Source: an uncultured SAR86 cluster bacterium
GTDB lineage: Bacteria > Pseudomonadota > Gammaproteobacteria > Magnimaribacterales > D2472
NCBI GenBank assembly: GCA_905181595.1
Contig: CAJIYI010000001.1
Coordinates: forward strand, 835,938 to 899,937
DNA length: 64,000 nt
Reading direction: 5' to 3'
A program made the position numbers and the translations under genes. The notes under the pieces were generated by a model. That model saw nothing but the letters and a program-made list of their open reading frames with translations, ran no database searches and was not told where the DNA came from. Below, one piece after another: positions 45,941 through 60,315 of this stretch (its first letter is position 1; each line of letters starts with the position of its first letter).

Positions 45941-46681
45941 ATGGAATATCATTCATATCTTCAGCAACAAGGAATTTCAATTTCTGCGCATCGAGGTGGA
46001 AGCTTGGAAGCACCAGAAAATACATTAGAAGCGTTTAAATATTCATTAGACTTAGGATGTAAATACATTGAAACAGATGTTCAACTTTCATCTGATGGTA
46101 TCCCATATATCTTTCATGACGATGATTTAAAGCGCATCTTAGGACGAGATATTTTATTTAATTCAATGCCTAGCTCTGAAATAGATAGCTTAATAATATT
46201 TCAAAAATATTCTATTCCAACATTAGAGGCTGCTCTGCTTGAATTTCCAGAGGCTTTATTTCAAATTGATGTGAAGACTGATGAGGTTGCAATGCCAGCA
46301 TTGGAGACTATTAAAAAGTGTGCAGCAATGCCTAGGGTTTGCATCGCAAGTTTTAATAGCGATAGATTAAAAAGAGTGAGCGAAGCTTACCCGGATGTCT
46401 GTCTTTCTATGGGACCAAAAGAAGTTTTAAAATTGCTTTTATCAAGCTTTAGGCTTTACCACAAAGATGTTCCCGGTCATTGTTTGCAAATTCCCATCTA
46501 TCAGTATGGATTAAAGCTAGTCACTCAAAGATTTATAAATTATGTACAAAAGCGAGGTCTAAAAATAATGGTTTGGACAATCAATGATCAAGAGACCATG
46601 CAGACTCTAATAGATATGGGTGTAGATGGAATTATTACCGATCGACCTAGTGCACTCAAAGAGTTGCTTAGCAAAGCTTAG
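45941..46681 (+). CDS. ugpQ: Glycerophosphodiester phosphodiesterase
   Basis: The 246-residue cytoplasmic protein has the GDPD motifs ISAHRGGSLEAPENTLEAF (catalytic His and metal ligand), YIETDVQLSSDG and YIFHDDDLKR, and the C-terminal DGIITDRP. It converts glycerophosphodiesters to glycerol 3-phosphate and an alcohol. No signal peptide is present, which fits a UgpQ-like role in recycling lipid headgroups. Its end overlaps the convergent methyltransferase gene by four bases. Confidence 0.9.
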   Translation: MEYHSYLQQQGISISAHRGGSLEAPENTLEAFKYSLDLGCKYIETDVQLSSDGIPYIFHDDDLKRILGRDILFNSMPSSEIDSLIIFQKYSIPTLEAALLEFPEALFQIDVKTDEVAMPALETIKKCAAMPRVCIASFNSDRLKRVSEAYPDVCLSMGPKEVLKLLLSSFRLYHKDVPGHCLQIPIYQYGLKLVTQRFINYVQKRGLKIMVWTINDQETMQTLIDMGVDGIITDRPSALKELLSKA

Positions 46682-47691
46682 GCAGCTGGTTTTTCCGCAA
46701 CAATTCTCCAATTTAAATCAGCAATTTTCGCTTTTTCAGCATCCGTCCATGCTTCACCGCCGGTCTGGAGAAGCTCTAATGACTCCTCAACCCATGGTGG
46801 AAGTATTCTAACTTTTTCAAGAAAGCGAATCACTTTTCGAATCCCAAAAATAAGATTGCGCTTCTGCTCGCATATTGGCCACGCCGGTCTTTGAGATGGT
46901 TCAGATACTAGTATTTTAAAGCCTGCTCTTTCTAGAGCTGCACAAACATCTGCGGGATACATAGATTGAGTTGCGGCTAAAGTTGGAAGATAAATTTTAT
47001 GCAGCGCAGCATGCTCGGGATTATTCCAATCAAAATAAGGTGACAAGAGATATTCAGAACAAGCGTAGCGTGTCCCTGGCTTTAAGATTCGATACATTTC
47101 CCTGGCACAGTCATCAAGTTCTTCGGTTTTAAAAAATGGCCAAACAGCTTGGACTGAAAAGCACCCATCAAAAGATTCAGAATCATAATCCAGTGGATCA
47201 TGATGGTTGCCCTCTTTAAAGTGGAGCCTATCGGTCATATTAGTTTCCGCTGCCCATTCAATAGCATTCTCAATCTGATTGGGGTCGATGTTATAACCAG
47301 AAACCTGACCGCCGGTCATTGTTGCTAAATAATGAGCTATTCTGCCTCGCCCACATCCCATATCTAATAGATGAGATGATTCAGGATTTTGAAGATTTAG
47401 TTGTTTTAGGAGCGCTTGTTCACAAATCAATTGATTGTCATACAAGCCCTTAGAGTCATCATACTGGGGCGGAATGTATAGCTTTTCTAGATCAAAAACA
47501 GAAAGCATATTATTTAAAACTTTATAGTATGCAGCGACTGCCTTTGTTTCATCTGCAGTCTCAGTTTTCTCGCCGCCTTGCATGCGTTGAAAAAACTTGT
47601 ACGCATCAATACAGGCTTGTTTATCCTCAGCCGATATTGTTGCCAGTCTTTTGAGTCCCGTGAAAGAAGTTTTAATTCTGTACCAATTCAT
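46678..47691 (-). CDS. Sterol 24-C-methyltransferase-like SAM-dependent methyltransferase
   Basis: The 337-residue protein has a class I SAM domain: motif I LLDMGCGRGRIAHYLA near residue 115, SGYNIDPNQIENA, then CFSVQAVWPF and MYRILKPGTRYACSEY. Its layout is that of Erg6/SMT rather than a generic methyltransferase: an N-terminal region with AAYYKVLNNMLSVFD before motif I, and a C-terminal domain with NNPEHAALHKIYLP, AALERAGFKILVSE and a LLQTGGEAW block where SMTs have VAGGK. The start at 47691 has AGGAG upstream. The substrate could be a sterol or another polycyclic or isoprenoid lipid; this is inference. Confidence 0.72.
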   Translation of the reverse strand: MNWYRIKTSFTGLKRLATISAEDKQACIDAYKFFQRMQGGEKTETADETKAVAAYYKVLNNMLSVFDLEKLYIPPQYDDSKGLYDNQLICEQALLKQLNLQNPESSHLLDMGCGRGRIAHYLATMTGGQVSGYNIDPNQIENAIEWAAETNMTDRLHFKEGNHHDPLDYDSESFDGCFSVQAVWPFFKTEELDDCAREMYRILKPGTRYACSEYLLSPYFDWNNPEHAALHKIYLPTLAATQSMYPADVCAALERAGFKILVSEPSQRPAWPICEQKRNLIFGIRKVIRFLEKVRILPPWVEESLELLQTGGEAWTDAEKAKIADLNWRIVAEKPAA

Positions 47692-47777
47692 TTTATGCGC
47701 TCCTAATATCAAATTGCTGAGAATTAGTTTCGCATACTAGTTAAGAATTAAAAAATAGATAGCTCCATTGGTAAGAA

Positions 47778-50495: not shown

Positions 50496-50597
50496 ATGGA
50501 TGAAGACTCACAAACAATTAAAAGTTTAAGCTTTTTTGTCATTGGCATAGGTGCATTAGTATTTTTGATTGGCATTGTAGCCTATTTATTTAATTAA
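50496..50597 (+). CDS. Predicted 33-residue single-span membrane peptide
   Basis: The frame gives an acidic start (MDEDSQTIKS) and one long hydrophobic helix ending YLFN. It lies between the divergent MBL gene and the convergent NTF2-like gene, overlapping the latter by eight bases. A promoter with exact leaderless geometry supports it. Function is unknown. Confidence 0.5.
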   Translation: MDEDSQTIKSLSFFVIGIGALVFLIGIVAYLFN

Positions 50598-51210
50598 CTT
50601 TTATCTTGCCTGGCTTAGAGCCTCGATTTAAAGCTTTCAAAAAATTATTGGCCTCAGCTGGTTCTGACACATCTGTATCTCTCACATAATCACTGCCCCA
50701 GAAATCTTTCCACGAGGGAAATAAGTCGTGGAAAAATCCTTCATAAGGATCCTCATTTGGCCAACGCATCTTCTTGTCGCCTAGTGGCGGTTTATTAATA
50801 TCGGAGGCATACCAATACATTGGCAGCCTTTTATGGAACAGCCATGTGCCGTCTACTCTTTTATAGGAATCCCAATAAAGCATTTGCATAATTACCCAAT
50901 CTGTCTTTGTTTCATGCTCATTCTTTGAATACACCAAGCCGATAGCAGAGTCAGCAGACTCAAATTCAATAATGTGATTACCAATATGATGAGAGGTGCC
51001 TGTAAATTTATCTCTAAAGGTGGAATCAGCCCATGCTTTAAGAGCTTGACGTCCCTCCCCGTTTTTACCCACCCTGACATCGGGAACAAATAGATTCACG
51101 TGCATATCCAAGTCTCGCATATCTAGTGTTACAGAGTATTTTGCAGCAAGCTGCCTAATTTCATCCAAGGATTCTAAGCGATCAAGCCTTTCCTCTATGC
51201 TCATGCTCAT
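50590..51210 (-). CDS. NTF2-fold (SnoaL-like) protein
   Basis: The 206-residue protein carries the SnoaL_4 pattern: an N-terminal helix EERLDRLESLDEIRQLAAKY, LDMRDLDMHVNLFVPDVRV, and TSHHIGNHIIEF, with a 60-residue extension after the domain. Relatives include dehydratases, ring-hydroxylating dioxygenase beta subunits and ketosteroid-isomerase-like enzymes. The ATG at 51210 overlaps the HIT stop (ATGA). As the last gene of the lipid operon it could act on the same substrate; no catalytic assignment is certain. Confidence 0.75.
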   Translation of the reverse strand: MSMSIEERLDRLESLDEIRQLAAKYSVTLDMRDLDMHVNLFVPDVRVGKNGEGRQALKAWADSTFRDKFTGTSHHIGNHIIEFESADSAIGLVYSKNEHETKTDWVIMQMLYWDSYKRVDGTWLFHKRLPMYWYASDINKPPLGDKKMRWPNEDPYEGFFHDLFPSWKDFWGSDYVRDTDVSEPAEANNFLKALNRGSKPGKIKVN

Positions 51211-51545
51211 CCTGGAGGCCAAGTTAGTGATCGGCCACTCAGTAAATGCAAGTGGAGATGAAAAACACTTTGCCCAGCATTGGCTCCATTGTTAGTCACT
51301 AATCTAAAAGTATCGTCAAGCTCTAGCATCCTTGAGACCTCGCCAGCCACAAGCATCAAATGACCTAGTAGCGCTTGATCTTCTGGAGTTGCATCTGAAA
51401 GCTTGGGAATAGCTTTTTTTGGAATAATCAGAAGATGTGTTGGCGCTTGAGGTTGGATATCTTTAAAAACAAGAGCAAGCTCATCTTCATAAATTATGTC
51501 AGCAGGAATCTCTTTGTTTATTATTTTTGTAAAAATAGTTTCCAT
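51207..51545 (-). CDS. HIT family (HINT-like) protein
   Basis: The 112-residue protein is a histidine triad hydrolase with DELALVFKDIQPQAPTHLL and the triad HLHLHLL near the C-terminus. HINT-type enzymes hydrolyse purine nucleoside phosphoramidates and acyl-adenylates. It is coupled to the NTF2-like gene and follows the DedA gene by four bases. Confidence 0.92.
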   Translation of the reverse strand: METIFTKIINKEIPADIIYEDELALVFKDIQPQAPTHLLIIPKKAIPKLSDATPEDQALLGHLMLVAGEVSRMLELDDTFRLVTNNGANAGQSVFHLHLHLLSGRSLTWPPG

Positions 51546-51549
51546 TCAG

Positions 51550-52248
51550 CTATATCAAAAATCTAAATAATCTAAATCCCACATAGAAAACACCAATAGA
51601 CATGCTAAGGGCTAAGATAATTACCAATAAGTCTCGAATAGATTTTAAAAATTTTCCATCCGGAGAATTGGATAAAAGCTGCTGAACCAAAAACAGCAAA
51701 GCAACAATAGACAAAAATGCAATAATTAAAGTAATCATAATTATGTGAATATAGGCGCTACCGAGACTACAAGCAAGGCTAAAGCGCAAGGCCCATGCAA
51801 GACAAGCGATAATATCTGCAATATAAAATCTTTTTAATTCAAGATCTGTAATGCCTAACAAGAAAGGTACCAATGGTCTAATTGCTGGAATAAATCTGCC
51901 TATCACAACAGTATAAGGCCCAAATCGATTAAGAAATTTTTGAGTACGCTGAATGCCCTTTTGGCGTTTTTGAAGAAAATTGGATGCCATGAAAGATGGT
52001 CCAAATATTTTTCCAACAAGAAATCCTGATATGTCGCCCAGATGAGATCCAGCAAATGCAATGCTGCAAATCCATGGCAACGTTAAAAGTTCAGTATTGT
52101 ACAAGTAAACACATAAAGAAAATAAAATTGCACTAGGCATAAAACTGCCGGTGATAATCATAGATTCCATGAAGCCAAATAAGAATACTAGAAACCATGC
52201 GTATTCAGGATTGGTTTCTAGAAAAAATTGAATTTTATCAAATGGCAT
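51550..52248 (-). CDS. DedA family membrane protein
   Basis: The 232-residue protein has five or six predicted helices and the DedA core: ESMIITGSFMPSAILF, GSHLGDISGFLVGKIFG and the conserved GRFIPAIRPLVPFLLGI. DedA proteins are now viewed as lipid flippases for undecaprenyl phosphate or phosphatidylethanolamine. It is in the same run as the crotonase genes (four-base gap). Confidence 0.88.
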   Translation of the reverse strand: MPFDKIQFFLETNPEYAWFLVFLFGFMESMIITGSFMPSAILFSLCVYLYNTELLTLPWICSIAFAGSHLGDISGFLVGKIFGPSFMASNFLQKRQKGIQRTQKFLNRFGPYTVVIGRFIPAIRPLVPFLLGITDLELKRFYIADIIACLAWALRFSLACSLGSAYIHIIMITLIIAFLSIVALLFLVQQLLSNSPDGKFLKSIRDLLVIILALSMSIGVFYVGFRLFRFLI

Positions 52249-52252
52249 AAAT

Positions 52253-52993
52253 TTATCCTTTTCTTGAAAAAAATTTCTCTATCGCTTTTATGTTATCTTC
52301 GGAGCCATACAGCCTCTTCATTGCTTTTGTCTCTAAGTCCCTTGCTGCAGAAAGAGCATCAGCATTAAAGGATTTTAGAATTGCTTTGGTTTCTATAATT
52401 GAAGCGAGGGATTGTTCGTTTAATTGATGGGCATAATCTATAGCTTTATCGTAATAGTCCTCTCCTAGGTATTTAGCCATGCCAAAATCAAAATACTCCT
52501 TGCCACTTATCCACTCTGCTCCAAATAATACTTGGGCAGCCTTTTGATAGCCAAGTGATTGAAATAATAACAGTGAGCTTCCTACTTCAGGAGCTAAGCC
52601 CAGATCTGAAAAAGGGTATTTAACTTTTGCATTAGGGCTAATAAAGATGGCATCAAAATGCAGAAGAATAGTCGCACCTCCGCCAATGGCAGTTCCATCA
52701 ACAGCAGCAATGAGGGGCTTTTTATAATTAATCAAAGCATCAACGCAAGTTTCAAATGGCTCTTCATAGTTTGCGCCGCCATCCCCCACCATACTTGCCA
52801 GATCAACACCGGAAGAAAAAGTATTGCTTGCTCCTGTCACAATCACGGAATGAACCTCTGGATTTTCGCTCGCTGAATTCAGCGCATCTCTTAACAATCC
52901 CCATAGATCAGCATCAAAAGCATTTTTTGTTTCCGGGCGATTGAGCGTAAGAAGCTGGACCTTATCAATGGTCTCGATTAGAAGTTTGCTCAT
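52253..52993 (-). CDS. Enoyl-CoA hydratase/isomerase family protein, ECI-like
   Basis: The 246-residue crotonase-fold protein has NRPETKNAFDADLWGLL, FSSGVDLASM, and AAVDGTAIGGGATILLHFD for the oxyanion hole. FSDLGLAPEVGSSLLL has a single glutamate at the position used by peroxisomal delta3-delta2-enoyl-CoA isomerases. It overlaps the next crotonase by four bases, in a run with two thiolase-like genes, so it probably handles a double bond in the same acyl-CoA substrate. Confidence 0.85.
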   Translation of the reverse strand: MSKLLIETIDKVQLLTLNRPETKNAFDADLWGLLRDALNSASENPEVHSVIVTGASNTFSSGVDLASMVGDGGANYEEPFETCVDALINYKKPLIAAVDGTAIGGGATILLHFDAIFISPNAKVKYPFSDLGLAPEVGSSLLLFQSLGYQKAAQVLFGAEWISGKEYFDFGMAKYLGEDYYDKAIDYAHQLNEQSLASIIETKAILKSFNADALSAARDLETKAMKRLYGSEDNIKAIEKFFSRKG

Positions 52994-53787
52994 TTTCCCT
53001 TAAAGTTAGGTTTACGTTTTTCTGCAAAAGCGGTTAGGCCTTCCATCATGTCTTCTGATGCAAAAATTGGCTGGCCAATTTCAAGCTCTTTTTCTAGAGC
53101 CTCAGCCTCAGGGTAGCTTTCATCAAGCTCTCGAAGAGATCTAACAATTGCTTGAATGGACAATGGTGCATTTGCACTGATGGTCTCTGCGATCTCCATT
53201 GCATGAGATAAAGCATCTCCATCTTCAACCATGTGACCTATTAGCCCAAATCTTAATGCCTCTTCAGCAGATATTCGACGACCAGTTAGCAGAGCCTCTG
53301 CCGCCAAGGTGTAAGGTATTTGTCTTCTTAAGCGAACGGTAGAACCTCCAAGCGGAAATAGCCCTCGCAAAGGTTCGGATAGACCGAAAACAGCAGACTT
53401 TCCTGCAACTCTGACATCCGTGCCTTGCAGAATTTCTGTGCCACCAGCCAAAGCAAATCCTTCAACGGCTGCAATAATAGGTTTGTTTGGGCGGTTGTGT
53501 CTTAAAAGTGATTGCCAATGAAGATCTGGGATAACTTTTAGTTTCTCCATCATTTCTGCATCTTCATTTCCTTCTTTCATAGCACTAAGATCAGCGCCGG
53601 AACAAAAAGTTCCACCTGCACCAGTCAATACAGCGCATCTTAAATTTGGATCTTCATCAAGTTTTCTCCAAGCCTCATAAATAGTTACAAGCATTCCTGG
53701 ACTCAAAGCATTTCTTTTTTCTGGTCTATTTAAGGTGATGACCATTATGTGGCCCTTCTCTTCTACAATTGCATGATCTGTGTTCAT
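52990..53787 (-). CDS. Enoyl-CoA hydratase (crotonase family)
   Basis: The 265-residue protein has NRPEKRNALSPGML, FCSGADLSAM, AAVEGFALAGGTEILQGTD, and VFGLSEPLRGLFPLGGS with a glutamate in GLSEP. The pattern resembles the actinobacterial EchA group more than E. coli FadB. It should hydrate a 2-enoyl-CoA. It follows the first thiolase-like gene by 12 bases in the same operon. Confidence 0.85.
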   Translation of the reverse strand: MNTDHAIVEEKGHIMVITLNRPEKRNALSPGMLVTIYEAWRKLDEDPNLRCAVLTGAGGTFCSGADLSAMKEGNEDAEMMEKLKVIPDLHWQSLLRHNRPNKPIIAAVEGFALAGGTEILQGTDVRVAGKSAVFGLSEPLRGLFPLGGSTVRLRRQIPYTLAAEALLTGRRISAEEALRFGLIGHMVEDGDALSHAMEIAETISANAPLSIQAIVRSLRELDESYPEAEALEKELEIGQPIFASEDMMEGLTAFAEKRKPNFKGK

Positions 53788-53799
53788 TGATATCTCCGA

Positions 53800-54948
53800 T
53801 TAGTCTTTGGTAGAGGAAACAATCCACATTGCAAAAAATTGTGCTGCGCCACCGTAGGCATGACCCATAGATATTTTTGCATCTTCCACCTGATGATCTT
53901 CAGCCAAGCCCATTACTTGAAGAGCAGCCTCACCAAAACGAATCATTCCGGATGCTCCAATGGGGTTAGAAGATAGAACTCCGCCTGACATATTTACAGG
54001 GAGGCTTCCATCCATAGCTGTCACACCCTCATCAGTTAATTTCCAACCTTCTCCTAAATCACAAAATCCTAGATTCTCTAGCCACATGGGCTCATACCAA
54101 GAAAATGGAACATAAATCTCTGCGCAATCAATTTCAGTTCTTGGGTTCTGAATTCCGGCTTGCTGGTATATGTCTTTAGCACAATCTATTCCGCCTTGCG
54201 GATTGACCTCATCACGGCCTGCAGAAAGAGTTCCCTCTGATCTAACCGCCATGCCTCTAATCCAAGCCACATTTCTTGAGCCCACTCTGTCTTCTGAGGT
54301 AATAACCATGGCACAAGCTCCATCGGAAGATGGACAGCTTTCTAAATATCGCAAGGGTTCCCAAAGCATAGGAGTTTCGCTCACCATTTTTTCATCTATG
54401 CCAGGTATTTGAAGATGCGCCAAAGGATTTTTTAAAGCATTTTGTCGATCCTTAGCAGCAACCTTCCATCCAATATGTTCGGGTGGCTCGTAACGACGAA
54501 TGTACTCACGAATAAATGGAGCAAAGTAGCCTCCAGCACCTGCATTAATGTGAGGTGAATAAGGGTATCTTGGAGATAAGGCCCATGTTGCATTTGATTC
54601 TGATTGTTTTTCAAACGTAACAGTTAATACGGTTTTAAATTGTCCAGAGCACACATGTGAGGCTGCTATTACAGCCGTGCTGCCACCCACGCTTCCGGCG
54701 GTATGAACCCTTAAAACAGGTTTGCCTACCGCGCCAATTGCATCAGCAAGATATAACTCAGGCATGATGACCCCTTCAAACATATCGGGAGCTTTACCCA
54801 GAACAACCGCGTCAACGGCGTCCCATTCTATGTCTGCTGCTAGCATTGCTTTGTCTATGGCTTCACGAACCAAGCCTGCCATGGACACATCTCTTCTCTT
54901 TGAATCGTAGTTAGTTTGACCAACACCTATGACGCCTGCTTGAATCAT
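53800..54948 (-). CDS. Thiolase-fold lipid-transfer-type protein (Ltp/SCP-x like), no catalytic cysteine
   Basis: The 382-residue protein has the SCP-x thiolase fold, but the nucleophile loop reads RVHTAGSVGGSTAV, with Gly85 where thiolases have cysteine. The HPIGASG histidine is replaced in SSNPIGASGMIRFGEAA, and the C-terminal loop is GHAYGGAAQFFAMWI. Loss of the cysteine is typical of Ltp-type aldolases, which pair with DUF35 proteins to cleave steroid side chains by retro-aldol chemistry. Its ATG overlaps the stop of the second thiolase-like gene, consistent with a heteromeric complex. The substrate is inferred. Confidence 0.85.
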   Translation of the reverse strand: MIQAGVIGVGQTNYDSKRRDVSMAGLVREAIDKAMLAADIEWDAVDAVVLGKAPDMFEGVIMPELYLADAIGAVGKPVLRVHTAGSVGGSTAVIAASHVCSGQFKTVLTVTFEKQSESNATWALSPRYPYSPHINAGAGGYFAPFIREYIRRYEPPEHIGWKVAAKDRQNALKNPLAHLQIPGIDEKMVSETPMLWEPLRYLESCPSSDGACAMVITSEDRVGSRNVAWIRGMAVRSEGTLSAGRDEVNPQGGIDCAKDIYQQAGIQNPRTEIDCAEIYVPFSWYEPMWLENLGFCDLGEGWKLTDEGVTAMDGSLPVNMSGGVLSSNPIGASGMIRFGEAALQVMGLAEDHQVEDAKISMGHAYGGAAQFFAMWIVSSTKD

Positions 54949-56000
54949 TTATGTCTCTCCAAATGAACAACCATGTTGTGTTGAAGGCAAGGACCAGAGG
55001 ATGCATGAGCAATTCCATGATCTGATTGATCGCTTACAAGTGATTGAAACGTTTTTCCAATGGCGTCTAGACCTGCACACATCATCACATTTCCAACCAA
55101 GGGACCGCCAGATAAATTTGTGGGAACATTTGTTAAGTTTAAAAGCTTTCTTAAAAATGGTACTTCATGACTGAATTGAGTGTGTAGCTCAGCCACATCA
55201 AAATTAATGTTCTTTAGGTTCAGATTAGTAATTGCATTTTGGATAGTTGGAGATGTTGCTAAATCTCTCGAGCCTAGATTTGAAGATTCAATGCTGTGAT
55301 CAATTCCCTCAATCCAAATAGGGTTATCGGTAAATTCAAAAGCTTTATCTTCTGAGGCAATCACCATTGCAGATGCTCCATCAGATATTGGAGGACAGTC
55401 AAAACCTCTAAGGGGAGAAGAAATTAATGAATCGGCTTGATAAAGATCCTCACTTACATGATCAGTCAAAAGTGCGTTTGGATTATTTGCTGCATTATTC
55501 CTGGCCTCAATAACTGTTGCCATCATTTCATCGTGGGTAATAATTTTTTGCTGCAATAATATCTGAGCTTGCAAAGCAGCCAAGCTAACCCGATCAGGCC
55601 AAAGCGGAGAAATATAGTAAGGGTCCATCTGCAAAGAAATAATTGAATCAAGGTTTCCCGGTGAAGATTTACCAAAACCATAAATTAATGCGGTGTCTGC
55701 ATCACCCATCTTAATTTTTAACATAGACTCATAGAGTGCCCAAGCTGCATCCATCTCAACGTGTGATTCTTTAATGGGAGGACTTGTTTGGATCGCAGAT
55801 AACCCTTCAACAAATGCAAAAGCTGCACCTTGGAGATAATCACAGCTTCCAGAGCAAGTGAAGCCAATATCATCTTGCGATATGCCTAGATCATTAAAAA
55901 CCTTATGCACAACCGGCATAATAAGTTCTACTTCATTTAAAGCGCCTGCATTAGGCAATATCTTGTGCTGTGCGTAACCTACTACTGCTACTTTTTTCAT
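54945..56000 (-). CDS. Second thiolase-fold lipid-transfer-type protein, no catalytic cysteine
   Basis: The 351-residue thiolase-fold protein has GFTCSGSCDYLQGAAFAFV near residue 45 and SHVEMDAAWALYESML at the usual nucleophile position, where Met-Asp replaces the cysteine motif. Later blocks are LIYGFGKSSPG, CPPISDGASAMVIA and the C-terminal NLSGGPLVGNVMMCAGL. It resembles the Ltp3/Ltp4-type proteins of actinobacteria that are needed for C-24-branched sterol side-chain breakdown. It is coupled by four-base overlaps to both neighbours. Confidence 0.85.
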   Translation of the reverse strand: MKKVAVVGYAQHKILPNAGALNEVELIMPVVHKVFNDLGISQDDIGFTCSGSCDYLQGAAFAFVEGLSAIQTSPPIKESHVEMDAAWALYESMLKIKMGDADTALIYGFGKSSPGNLDSIISLQMDPYYISPLWPDRVSLAALQAQILLQQKIITHDEMMATVIEARNNAANNPNALLTDHVSEDLYQADSLISSPLRGFDCPPISDGASAMVIASEDKAFEFTDNPIWIEGIDHSIESSNLGSRDLATSPTIQNAITNLNLKNINFDVAELHTQFSHEVPFLRKLLNLTNVPTNLSGGPLVGNVMMCAGLDAIGKTFQSLVSDQSDHGIAHASSGPCLQHNMVVHLERHK

Positions 56001-56497
56001 GATGGTTTAAACCTTAAAGTGGATACATCAACATCTGGTTCATCAATAGGAGCGAACCATTTAATATTCTCTAATGAATGAGTCCATTCATCTTTTGGTT
56101 TCCAGACTGCCTGAACCCGCATTCCAATTCTAATTTGGTCAATTTCAATATCCTGCACTAAATGCAAAAAGGAAATATCAGCTTCATCAAGTCGAATCAT
56201 GGCGCAAACATAGGGAGGCACTATTGGGTTGCCTGGAATTGGTATGTGCACCACAGTAAAAGATTCCACGCAGCCTTTGTCTGTTAAAGGCACTTCAATG
56301 GATGTTGCAATTCCGCATCTTGGGCAACTCCCTCTAGGCGGAACATAAACGGCCTTGCATTTAGGACATGATTGCCCAACCAACCTGCCCTCTTTTACTT
56401 GATTCAAAAAAGTGGTGGTTGCTGAGCCAGCTGTGTATTGATACTCAAGATGAATAAAGGATTCTTTGTAATCTTTAGGTGCTTGATCGTCGCTCAT
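55997..56497 (-). CDS. DUF35 zinc-ribbon OB-fold protein
   Basis: The 166-residue protein has an N-terminal zinc ribbon with all four cysteines (Cys44, Cys47, Cys58, Cys61; CPKCKAVYVPPRGSCPRCG) and a C-terminal OB-fold (VESFTVVHIPIPGNP and IRIGMRVQAVWK). DUF35 proteins act as partners of thiolase-fold enzymes, for example in Ltp2-ChsH2 aldolases, and supply part of the active site or CoA channel. It is coupled to the thiolase-like gene and to the second DUF35 gene. Confidence 0.9.
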   Translation of the reverse strand: MSDDQAPKDYKESFIHLEYQYTAGSATTTFLNQVKEGRLVGQSCPKCKAVYVPPRGSCPRCGIATSIEVPLTDKGCVESFTVVHIPIPGNPIVPPYVCAMIRLDEADISFLHLVQDIEIDQIRIGMRVQAVWKPKDEWTHSLENIKWFAPIDEPDVDVSTLRFKPS

Positions 56498-56943
56498 GAT
56501 TCTAAAATAAAATAATTAATGTCTGTGATGGCTTCGGTTGGATTCTCAGACCAAACAGGTAAAACTTTTTTTCCAATACTAAGATCAGATTCATCGCAAT
56601 CGGAAACCATGTGAAGCATGGCTGTATCTGCACCATCCAACTTAATGAGAGCAAATGCAAAGGGTGTTTTTAAGAGGTGATGAGATCGAGGTGAGTTTAC
56701 CCAGCTCCAAGACTCAATGGTTCCACCAGGGCCAACTTCAACAATTTCAGTTAAAGCTTCTCTTGTATCTGGATCGTATTCAGCGGCTGGAGCAAAAACT
56801 TTTTGAGCTTTGCTTTTGGTTCCAAAAATTTTCTTTTGAGATAAGCCTTCAAAAAACTTAGACATCACTGGACCGCTTGAACGCTTATATTTATACGAAA
56901 GCTCAAAAGGAGCTTCTAATAAATTGATCTTGCTGTCATTCAT
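56494..56943 (-). CDS. DUF35 OB-fold protein lacking the zinc ribbon cysteines
   Basis: The 149-residue protein has the same layout as its neighbour (GPVMSKFFEGLSQKKIFGTK, then TIESWSWVNSP and an OB-fold ending SIGKKVLPVW). All four zinc-binding cysteines are replaced in the segment KSKAQKVFAPAAEYDPDTRE, so it should not bind zinc there. Two thiolase-like and two DUF35 genes side by side suggest two enzyme-partner pairs or one mixed complex. Confidence 0.82.
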   Translation of the reverse strand: MNDSKINLLEAPFELSYKYKRSSGPVMSKFFEGLSQKKIFGTKSKAQKVFAPAAEYDPDTREALTEIVEVGPGGTIESWSWVNSPRSHHLLKTPFAFALIKLDGADTAMLHMVSDCDESDLSIGKKVLPVWSENPTEAITDINYFILES

Positions 56944-58597
56944 TCTCTTCTACCATCGTATTTTTAGATGAGTCTATTAAAACATGTTTCATTAATTTTC
57001 CGGAAGCATTTCTTGGTAATGATTGTTCAGCAAATATCCATTTAGACGGTACCTTAAAATCTGCAAGCTTTGATGAAACCCAGTTTGATAGTTCTTCTTG
57101 TGTAATCTCAGAGTTTACTAGCTTTATAACTGCTGCAACTTCTTGCCCTAAATCTTCGTGAGGTAATCCAATGACTGCAGATTCTTCGACCATGGGATGT
57201 AAATCCAAAAGAAGCTCAATCTCCTGAGGATAGACATTTTCAGCTCCGCGTAAAATAAGATCAGTGCGCCTAGAAGAAATAAAAAATAAATGGCCTTCTT
57301 TGAAGCCAAAGTCTCCGGTTCTCAGCCAGCGATCCTCTAACAAAGATTCGCTTGAGGCTTCGGGATTATTAAAGTACCCCAGCATGACCGAGGGGCTCCT
57401 AACAAAAATTTCTCCTTCTTCGTTGTCCTCTAAAATGACTTGCCCTTCCTCATCTCTAAGCTCTACATTAACGGTTGGCATAACTTGTCCTGGAGAAGCT
57501 GGATTGCTATTTAGGTTTTCACCCCAGTTAATAATGGTAATAGCGCCTGACTCAGTTAGACCATAGCCATAGCCAAAGCTGTATTTAGAACTAGGAAAGA
57601 CTTCCTTGGTTCTTTCAATTAAAGCAGGAGGCATTGGAGCGCCACCACCCCCGACTACGAGAACTGATGGAAGACTGATATTAGTTTCGTTTGCAGCATC
57701 CAGAACTCTTTTTAAGGCGGTAGGCACAGCGCCGCCCCAAGAAGTAACATTAAATTTATCAATCAACTCTAGTATTTTATGGGCAGAAAATTTTCCTGCA
57801 TAAAGAAGAGTTGTTGAACCGGCAAATAAACTCGTTACCACACCAGCCGAAAGACCTGATACATGAAATAAGGGAGAGGTTAAAAGACTGGTAGGTTTAT
57901 GTTTACCCCAATCAATGCCCTTAGAGGATGAATCTTGGGAGACTGCTGCGCCTTGCAGCATCGATAGAGTTGAGTTTGCAATCATAGAGCGATGAGAAGT
58001 CATAACACCCTTCGGTGCGCCAGTTGTCCCTGAGGTGTAAAGCAAACAAGCACACTCATCTTCATCGAGACGAATAAATGAATCTATCATCTCAGATTGA
58101 TTGGCTAAATCCATTTCTTCAAAAATTAATACAGGATGTGTTGGCTCGCCAGAAATGCGATCGAATCTTTTTTGATCAGCAACAATTAATTTTGGGTCAG
58201 CATCCTCAATGGCTTTCATTGCCTCAGAGCCCTTCCACCAACCATTCAAACCACAAGCAATAGCACCAATACTTACAGTGGCCCAAAAGAAAATGACCCA
58301 CTCAGGGCAATTGGCTGCGTATATAGCCACCCTATCTCCAGGTTTAACCTCATACTCATTCTTTAAAATGTATGCAGCTTTTTTAACTAGCTTCAAATGC
58401 TCAGCGTAAGTAATAACCTTATCTTGGTAGATAAGATATGGTTGGTCGCCATGATTATTTGAAAGCTCTAAAAAATCTACCAGAGACCTAGGGCGATTTT
58501 TGAAAACGTCCATCTCTGATCCAAGAACATTCTCACGATGTATCTGAAAAAATTCTTGATCTGAAACCAAGGCTTGTATGTATTTATCTGTGTGCAT
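56936..58597 (-). CDS. Acyl-CoA ligase (AMP-binding), long-chain or steroid-acid type
   Basis: The 553-residue protein is an ANL superfamily ligase: P-loop LLYTSGTTGAPKGVMTSH, GYGLTESGAITI, LRTGDFGFKEG, RRTDLILRGAENVYPQEIE, and the C-terminal catalytic lysine in LPRNASGKLMKH. It activates a carboxylate to its CoA ester and begins the operon, so it probably feeds the thiolase/crotonase enzymes. Its last bases overlap the DUF35 gene by eight. The chain type is not readable from the sequence alone. Confidence 0.9.
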   Translation of the reverse strand: MHTDKYIQALVSDQEFFQIHRENVLGSEMDVFKNRPRSLVDFLELSNNHGDQPYLIYQDKVITYAEHLKLVKKAAYILKNEYEVKPGDRVAIYAANCPEWVIFFWATVSIGAIACGLNGWWKGSEAMKAIEDADPKLIVADQKRFDRISGEPTHPVLIFEEMDLANQSEMIDSFIRLDEDECACLLYTSGTTGAPKGVMTSHRSMIANSTLSMLQGAAVSQDSSSKGIDWGKHKPTSLLTSPLFHVSGLSAGVVTSLFAGSTTLLYAGKFSAHKILELIDKFNVTSWGGAVPTALKRVLDAANETNISLPSVLVVGGGGAPMPPALIERTKEVFPSSKYSFGYGYGLTESGAITIINWGENLNSNPASPGQVMPTVNVELRDEEGQVILEDNEEGEIFVRSPSVMLGYFNNPEASSESLLEDRWLRTGDFGFKEGHLFFISSRRTDLILRGAENVYPQEIELLLDLHPMVEESAVIGLPHEDLGQEVAAVIKLVNSEITQEELSNWVSSKLADFKVPSKWIFAEQSLPRNASGKLMKHVLIDSSKNTMVEENE

Positions 58598-58741: not shown

Positions 58742-59509
58742 ATGGATTCACAAAACACAGATCAAAAACTAGCTGTCATTACTGGAGGAGCGTCTGGCAT
58801 TGGGCTGAGTTGCAGCAAGCGCTTTGCAAAAGAAGGTTATGCAGTTTTAATAATTGATGCGAATAAAGAAGCCGGTGAACAAGAATTAAAAAGCCTTAAA
58901 TCAGATGGTTATAATGCAGATTTTGCTTATTGCGATATCACCAAACATGAGCAAGTCGCCGCTATATTTCAAGGACTTGCAGACCAAAATAAATGTGCAC
59001 AGGTGTTAGTAAATTGTGCCGGCATTAGTCCAGCTTTGAATGCATTACACGAGTACCCTGTAGAAGAATGGCATCGTGCCATTGATATCAATCTGCATGG
59101 GACCTTCTATGCTTGCCGAGAGTTTCTTGGTCTTGCAATGAAGAATAATGCATCCGATGGTTCAATTATCAATGTGGCTTCAATTATGGGAGTAAGAGCC
59201 AGCGCAGCTCAAGCATCTTATGCTGCATCTAAACATGCCGTTGTAGGTCTCACCAAATCTATTGCTCAAGACTATGCTCATTTAAATATTCGTGCCAATG
59301 CTGTGGGTCCTGGAGTCATTGATACGCCCATGAACACAGAATTGATGAAAGATGAAAATGTAATGCAATACATGCTTGGAAGGATTCCTTTAAAGCGAGT
59401 TGCTTCTTCGGATGAGGTAGCCAATCTTATTTATTTTCTTGCCTCCTCAGAGGCCTCATACATTACAGGGTCCTATCACCCGGTTGATGGTGGCTATCTT
59501 GCAAGCTGA
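58742..59509 (+). CDS. SDR family oxidoreductase (FabG-like)
   Basis: The 255-residue classical SDR has ITGGASGIGLSCSKRF, LVNCAGISP, the catalytic serine in NVASIMGVRASAAQ, YAASK and ITGSYHPVDGG. It should be a 3-hydroxyacyl or hydroxysteroid dehydrogenase. It is divergent from the acyl-CoA ligase operon across 144 bases with no recognised promoter motif, and its end overlaps the next SDR by about 23 bases. Confidence 0.88.
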   Translation: MDSQNTDQKLAVITGGASGIGLSCSKRFAKEGYAVLIIDANKEAGEQELKSLKSDGYNADFAYCDITKHEQVAAIFQGLADQNKCAQVLVNCAGISPALNALHEYPVEEWHRAIDINLHGTFYACREFLGLAMKNNASDGSIINVASIMGVRASAAQASYAASKHAVVGLTKSIAQDYAHLNIRANAVGPGVIDTPMNTELMKDENVMQYMLGRIPLKRVASSDEVANLIYFLASSEASYITGSYHPVDGGYLAS

Positions 59510-60315
59510 CATATTTAAAAATAAAACTGCGCTGATCACTGGGGCTGCAAGTGGTATTGGTCGCGGCTTAGCTGTCCATGCGGCTGGTCTTGGAATGAAT
59601 GTTGTTTTGATGGATCTCAACGAAGAAGGCTTGTCTGAAACTCAAGCTCTTATCCCAAGCTCCCCTACTCTTGTATTGAAGTGTGATGTATCTAATCTCG
59701 AAGAATTCACTCTATGCAAAGAAAAGATAGATGCGGAATTTGGCATGGTTCATTTTCTTTTTAACAACGCTGGAATTTTTTTAGAGGGCCGAGCTTGGAA
59801 AGCAGATCAAAAGAATTGGAAGAGAGTCATTGATGTAAATTTAATGAGTGTTATCTATGGGTTAAATCTCTTTGTAGATGAGATGATCAATAGCAATGAA
59901 CGTTGTCACATTATTAATACATCTTCCATGGCAGGGATAATCGTTGGGCCCGCTTTAGCGCCTTATACAACGACCAAACACGCAGTTGTAGGCCTAACAA
60001 GAACACTTCATGAGGACTTAGCTCAGAATGATAAAGTTGGAGTGTCTGTGATGTGCCCAGGTCTTGTCAAAACTAACATCATAGAAAGAGACCATCTGGG
60101 ACTAGATCTAGATGAATCCTCCATTGATCAGCACGAAAGCGCTAAAAACAATGCACAGTGGCTTAGCCGATGGGGTAAAAGAAGGAATGACTACTGAAGA
60201 CCTAGCAGTCATAGTATTCAATAAAATTGAACAAAATCAATTTTGGATCCTAACGCATCCTGAGTTTATAGATGTTTACGCTGGCTACTCCAAAGAGCTC
60301 ATAGACACTCTTTAG
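59487..60315 (+). CDS. SDR family oxidoreductase, one frameshift near 60146
   Basis: The first frame has ITGAASGIGRGLAVHAAG, FLFNNAGIF, INTSSMAGIIVG and YTTTKHAVVGL. The second carries the C-terminal EGMTTEDLAVIVF and FWILTHPEFIDVY. Removing one A from the run of five at 60144-60148 joins them into a protein of about 275 residues. The C-terminal THPEF segment is typical of SDRs that reduce or oxidise larger lipid-like substrates. The shift is probably a sequence error. Confidence 0.82.

Follow-up and report, generated by a model that had tools for sequence, protein, structure and literature searches.

What does a run of seven coupled genes, encoding an acyl-coenzyme A (CoA) ligase, two DUF35 proteins, two thiolase-fold proteins and two crotonases, do in a SAR86 bacterium? 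The genes lie on the minus strand at positions 52253-58597 of the window, by which we mean the whole stretch of 64,000 nucleotides (nt) analyzed here from an uncultured SAR86 cluster bacterium (contig CAJIYI010000001.1). An original prediction, made from the sequence alone, had read the run as an operon possibly degrading sterol-like side chains, and all seven open reading frames (ORFs) that it listed were recovered with tight junctions (by ORF coordinates, -8, -4, -4, -4, +12 and -4 nt when read from ligase to second crotonase). Here the families, phylogeny, gene order and active-site residues of the encoded proteins were determined, together with their co-occurrence with steroid-ring genes. 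We propose, with a probability of about 0.72, that the operon encodes a heteromeric retro-aldolase of Ltp3, Ltp4 and DUF35 proteins for the side chains of C24-branched sterols. According to a review (PMC6678751), an aldol lyase composed of Ltp3 and Ltp4 cleaves such sterols between C24 and C25, and the resulting acid then has to be re-thioesterified; ltp3 and ltp4 were reported essential for this cleavage in Rhodococcus, according to the citations of Wilbrink 2012 in PMC6678751 and PMC6593523.

The thiolase-fold pair

Family searches separated the two thiolase-fold proteins. The protein of 382 amino acids (aa) was recognized as thiolase-like by Pfam and matched the NCBIfam family PRK08313 at 637 bits, above the cut-off of 514, while the 351-aa protein gave no match in the Pfam search and scored 417 bits against PRK07937, a "lipid-transfer protein" family, just under the NCBIfam cut-off of 419. 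A complete thiolase fold was predicted for the 351-aa protein by AlphaFold2 (predicted local distance difference test 84.7, predicted template modeling score 0.88), and its model matched 6et9 with a Z of 44.5. Sequence searches of the PDB with both proteins returned distant thiolases only, and a plasmid collection yielded actinobacterial Ltp4 homologues (42-46% identity) and otherwise distant thiolases only.

In a maximum-likelihood tree of 48 proteins, Ltp4 and Ltp3 each formed one clade with 100/100 support, and each clade included the corresponding operon protein and its rhodococcal orthologues. Both clades span SAR86, other Gammaproteobacteria, Sterolibacterium and Actinobacteria, and both stand apart from Ltp2-type and SCP2-type proteins; the join between them consists of long branches and was not used. 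The rhodococcal references were themselves identified by PRK07937 and PRK08313, by EchA19 nearby and by gene order. The original prediction had proposed a tree of this kind, with Ltp2, Ltp3 and Ltp4, and the grouping with acetyl-CoA acetyltransferases that it named as the contrary outcome was not seen.

Alignment to thiolases bore out the claim that both proteins lack the catalytic cysteine. The nucleophilic Cys is replaced by Gly85 in the Ltp3-type protein (HTAGSVGG) and by Glu82 in the Ltp4-type protein (SHVEMDAA), and the His of the GHP motif is also lost, being Asn in both operon proteins, in each Ltp3 aligned and in each Ltp4 but one. The HDxF motif reads YVPF in every Ltp3 aligned and HTQF, HAPF or YAPF in most Ltp4. 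Tyr279 of the Ltp3-type protein aligns with the catalytic Tyr base described for TcLtp2 (YDHF) and CtSal (YDCY) in PMC12329534. These residues fit an aldolase and exclude ordinary thiolysis. The motif varies less in Ltp3 than in Ltp4, which makes Ltp3 the probable catalytic subunit.

Partner genes and known systems

Supporting the assignment of the pair was the order of the genes around it in 80 loci collected by a conserved-peptide scan of bacterial genomes. DUF35a and DUF35b sit directly before the ltp4-type gene in all 80 loci (fused in 26, split in 54), and an ltp3-type gene follows ltp4 immediately in 77, the remaining three loci ending shortly past ltp4. Rhodococcus globerulus encodes a fused DUF35 protein, Ltp4 (PRK07937, 637 bits) and Ltp3 (PRK08313, 745 bits), and in R. 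erythropolis an EchA19 above its cut-off was found in the neighbourhood of the DUF35-ltp4-ltp3 block. The order in Mycobacterium tuberculosis is fadD19 (Rv3515c), echA19 (Rv3516), an F420-dependent oxidoreductase (Rv3520c), Rv3521, ltp4 (Rv3522) and ltp3 (Rv3523) (PMC6429209), and the operon matches its Rv3521-ltp4-ltp3 portion. The block was also seen in L047, a metagenome-assembled genome record titled Klebsiella pneumoniae, a title that is probably a mislabel.

Both DUF35 proteins were assigned to OB_ChsH2_C by Pfam. A zinc ribbon is present in DUF35b only. DUF35a has no Cys ribbon; in Spongiibacter and Rhodococcus, whose DUF35 protein is fused, its homologue is the first half of that protein. 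The first crotonase passes the wider family PRK07799 (366 versus 316 bits), with EchA19 as its second-best NCBIfam family. The second crotonase, by eye, is without the two usual hydratase Glu residues, and because these are missing an isomerase-like role is possible. No MaoC gene was found in the operon by Pfam.

The closest known system is that of Ltp3 and Ltp4 with an Rv3521-type DUF35 protein (Rhodococcus rhodochrous DSM 43269; M. tuberculosis Rv3521-Rv3522-Rv3523), which has the same subunits, DUF35 domains and order, and shares with the SAR86 operon an EchA19 relative and the lost thiolase residues. Identity to the actinobacterial proteins is ~46% for Ltp4 and ~60% for Ltp3. The SAR86 operon differs in that its DUF35 is divided between two genes rather than fused as in actinobacteria, in that it opens with a CasG-like ligase and not FadD19, and in that the EchA19-like protein and a second crotonase belong to the same run. 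The Ltp2-ChsH1-ChsH2 complex (6ok1, Thermomonospora curvata) likewise joins a thiolase-fold aldolase to DUF35, with Tyr at the HDxF position and Gly for Cys, whereas the SAR86 proteins have YVPF instead of YDHF, no fusion of a MaoC hydratase to DUF35 and two distinct thiolase-fold subunits. Assignment to Ltp2-ChsH2 was rejected: the match to PRK07855 was 108 bits against a cut-off of 469, and YDHF and the MaoC partner are missing. The Sal-Shy bile acid aldolase (9myr, Comamonas testosteroni) is similar in its thiolase-fold aldolase, DUF35 and Tyr base, but Sal has YDCY with a catalytic Cys and its DUF35 is fused to MaoC; neither feature occurs in the operon, and this assignment was also rejected. 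A partnership of DUF35 with thiolase-fold proteins is further known from the benzoylsuccinyl-CoA thiolase BbsAB and the acyltransferase PhlABC, the latter combining two condensing-enzyme-like subunits as the operon does. However, these enzymes keep thiolase or acyltransferase chemistry, and the operon proteins score 26-90 bits to their families.

The hydratase, both aldolase subunits, both DUF35 proteins and the CasG-nearest ligase, all in one operon, suit the scheme in PMC6678751. The EchA19-like hydratase would add water to a 24-enoyl side-chain CoA, and the Ltp3 site, where Tyr279 replaces the His of the thiolase HDxF motif, would then make the C24-C25 retro-aldol cut and release a short acyl-CoA. 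The CasG-like ligase would put CoA back onto the remaining C24 acid, allowing further chain shortening. In Ltp2 and Sal, a dimer of thiolase-fold subunits has DUF35 domains at its sides (PMC12329534), and Ltp3 and Ltp4 may accordingly form a pseudo-symmetric pair with one DUF35 partner on each; equal numbers of the two DUF35 domains are supported by their frequent fusion. We infer the subunit pairing, the order of the reactions and the bond that is cut, as well as C24-alkyl algal sterols as the substrate.

Steroid genes of the host and competing explanations

The host is a SAR86 genome of 1.41 megabases in two contigs, 87.6% complete, which was surveyed by family searches and in selected stretches, such that genes in the missing part could be overlooked. 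The nearest database loci, 76-79% identical across the Ltp4-type protein, bear the title SAR86 cluster bacterium, and one proteobacterial bin reaches 85%. A steroid-ring cluster was located at ~1072-1101 kilobases (kb), 180 kb from the operon. It comprises an HsaC-like dioxygenase, an HsaD-like hydrolase, HsaE/F/G-like proteins, a KshA-like oxygenase, a FadD3-family ligase above its cut-off and two CoA-transferase subunits whose best match was to chains of 6co6/6con, which we take to be IpdAB. Elsewhere in the genome are a KstD (470 bits to 7p18; a candidate from the FAD_binding_2 search) and a protein related to 4at0, a 3-ketosteroid delta4-(5alpha)-dehydrogenase; no clear match to HsaA was identified in the Acyl-CoA_dh_2 search. 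Based on the HsaC/D/E/F/G-like, IpdAB, FadD3-family, KshA-like and KstD genes, the host is very likely a degrader of the steroid nucleus.

The KshA-like Rieske oxygenase is divided between two genes that lie next to each other (G000:C1 ~1082.5-1083.8 kb; L128:10027-11321). One encodes a 145-aa Rieske domain protein and the other a catalytic protein of 281 aa that lacks the Rieske ligands, and Pfam Rieske and KshA_C match them separately. The same split was observed in the genomes G002, G032 and G090, and it is therefore conserved and not a sequencing error.

Across the 100 genomes tabulated out of 101 surveyed in the order, which are not independent of one another, KshA_C and the operon agreed in 94 (28 with both, 66 with neither and 6 mixed; Fisher p = 1e-18). 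All six mixed genomes belong to the genus of the window's own genome and are 55-82% complete. At the level of genera, the operon was present in 4/4 with KshA_C versus 0/16 others (p = 2e-4), and HsaC-like matches above 100 bits were restricted to the same four genera.

Several observations weigh against the proposed C24-branched sterol aldolase. The ligase has CasG as its best NCBIfam family and yet reaches only 549 of the 750 bits of the equivalog cut-off; the first crotonase likewise falls short of the EchA19 equivalog cut-off (348 versus 400 bits), and the Ltp4-type motif is HTQF in SAR86 versus HAPF or YAPF in most others. No C28 carboxylase gene is among the operon genes. In the window's genome, family searches found no Ltp2-type gene within the 87.6% that is represented, and no convincing CYP125 orthologue was identified; the Ltp2/ChsH2 system is also missing from most of the block-carrying SAR86 genomes checked. 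As such, the "complete set" of the original prediction is overstated, given that the operon has no C28 carboxylase and that most of these SAR86 genomes have no Ltp2/ChsH2, which completes side-chain removal in other organisms. The P450 nearest CYP125 in the host genome (G000:C1:699508-700773, L260; 31% identity) carries an in-frame TAA and has open counterparts in other SAR86, indicating that the host copy is either a pseudogene or an assembly error.

The scarcity of Ltp2 raises the alternative that one Ltp3-Ltp4-DUF35 complex performs every side-chain retro-aldol cut in most of these SAR86, the final C17-C20 cut included, and thus acts as a general steroid side-chain aldolase that also does the job of Ltp2 (C17-C20) or of Sal (C22-C23). 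We regard this as a tentative and rather unlikely explanation. Consistent with it, most genomes have no second pair of DUF35 and thiolase-like proteins: the window's genome, the single-contig genome G032 and SAR86E have only two DUF35 genes, both in the operon. In addition, the window's genome contains nucleus-degradation genes that need a 17-ketosteroid, and no Ltp2-type gene was found there. However, the Rhodococcus orthologues were reported, in the work as cited by later papers, to be essential for C24-branched sterols only, in cells that use Ltp2 for C17-C20. The active-site motifs match those of Ltp3/Ltp4 throughout, Ltp3 shows no Ltp2-like change peculiar to SAR86, and a C17-C20 enzyme from another family could exist. 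The other block-carrying genomes checked have at least three DUF35 matches; a PRK07855-type aldolase accompanied by a DUF35 of its own is encoded in G002 and G090, and extra DUF35 matches occur in G008, G013 and G014. G002 encodes this aldolase and DUF35 together with a P450, and also a full-length KshA that adjoins flavin adenine dinucleotide (FAD) dehydrogenases resembling KstD (L188:15785-16213, L189:956-2518, L132:5046-9446).

We consider it improbable that the substrate is a non-steroid branched isoprenoid or other beta-branched acyl-CoA, such as an acid from phytol or carotenoid breakdown, even though hydration and retro-aldol cleavage of a tertiary alcohol would be workable on any beta-branched acyl-CoA and the operon is distant from the main ring cluster. 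Set against this are the restriction of the operon to the genera that also have KshA_C and HsaC-like genes, the steroid-specific nature of the nearest ligase and hydratase families and the location of orthologues within actinobacterial cholesterol regulon clusters. The original prediction held other beta-branched acyl-CoAs to be equally compatible, which is too generous given that the tree, the actinobacterial gene order and the co-occurrence with steroid-nucleus genes give its sterol side-chain reading good support. That both proteins are ordinary degradative fatty-acid thiolases, as their fold and the label "thiolase-like" in annotation pipelines might imply, is extremely improbable in view of the missing nucleophilic Cys and GHP His and their separation from SCP2-type thiolases in the tree, and a degradative or SCP2 thiolase identity was rejected.

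Surroundings of the operon and significance

The minus-strand run extends beyond the second crotonase through genes for DedA, HIT and SnoaL proteins (junctions of +4, +4 and -16 nt), the continuation that had been predicted (Table 1). Since its genes nearly touch or overlap, the run from the ligase to the SnoaL protein is likely a single transcript. The two short-chain dehydrogenase/reductase (SDR) genes described as flanking the operon are indeed on the plus strand; they do not bracket it, both being on its upstream side. Further away on the minus strand, at 46678-47712, is an S-adenosylmethionine methyltransferase of broad class I/CMAS type which by eye resembles sterol C24-methyltransferases and matched no specific family in Pfam or NCBIfam. 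In a few SAR86 loci it recurs about as far from the operon as in the window.

Table 1. Features of the operon and its surroundings, in window coordinates.
Feature	Position	Strand	Evidence
Acyl-CoA ligase, 553 aa, nearest CasG steroid-24-oyl-CoA synthetase	56936..58597	-	AMP-binding 246 bits; NF052580 549 bits, cut-off 750
DUF35a, 149 aa, OB fold without zinc ribbon	56494..56943	-	PF01796 39.6 bits
DUF35b, 166 aa, zinc ribbon (CPKC...CPRC) and OB fold	55997..56497	-	PF01796 58 bits, PF12172 45 bits
Ltp4-type protein with thiolase fold, 351 aa, Glu82 in place of Cys	54945..56000	-	PRK07937; in the clade of rhodococcal Ltp4 (100/100)
Ltp3-type protein with thiolase fold, 382 aa, Gly85 in place of Cys, Tyr279 in YVPF	53800..54948	-	PRK08313 637 bits; in the clade of rhodococcal Ltp3 (100/100)
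EchA19-like enoyl-CoA hydratase, 265 aa	52990..53787	-	PRK07799 366 bits (cut-off 316); EchA19 348 bits (cut-off 400)
Second crotonase, 246 aa, no specific family	52253..52993	-	Pfam/NCBIfam crotonase
DedA-type membrane protein (by sequence)	51550..52248	-	Next in run; synteny kept in SAR86 genera g1 and g8
HIT-type protein (by sequence)	51207..51545	-	Next in run after DedA
NTF2-fold (SnoaL_4) protein	50590..51222	-	Next in run after HIT
SDR oxidoreductase, divergent from operon	58742..59509	+	Adjoins operon in most SAR86 loci
Second SDR oxidoreductase	~59478..60197	+	Neighbourhood comparison

Steroid-degradation genes of SAR86 were reported in 2016 (PMC4810484), and those for side chain and rings in 2024 (PMC11582366), in a paper that also gives the share of SAR86 among surface-ocean microbes as up to 6%. 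The Ltp3/Ltp4-DUF35 operon is not mentioned in the 2016 report or in the main text of the 2024 report, the latter being without "ltp" or "aldol". The enzymes are thus of a known kind and the host is a known candidate steroid degrader; what is new is the prediction of C24-branched sterols and the gap in the route, as the absence of Ltp2/ChsH2 poses a specific, testable question of how these cells cut C17-C20. A further prediction, drawn from the comparison of 80 loci, is a heteromeric complex of four parts (Ltp3, Ltp4 and two DUF35 domains), which the papers cited here do not describe.

Many phytoplankton make 24-alkyl sterols. If the operon does encode an aldolase for C24-branched sterols, it would tie SAR86 to these phytoplankton products and provide a marker gene for tracking sterol use in metagenomes, and the match of its enzymes to those with which soil actinobacteria remove the branched tails of plant and algal sterols suggests that SAR86 eats algal sterols.

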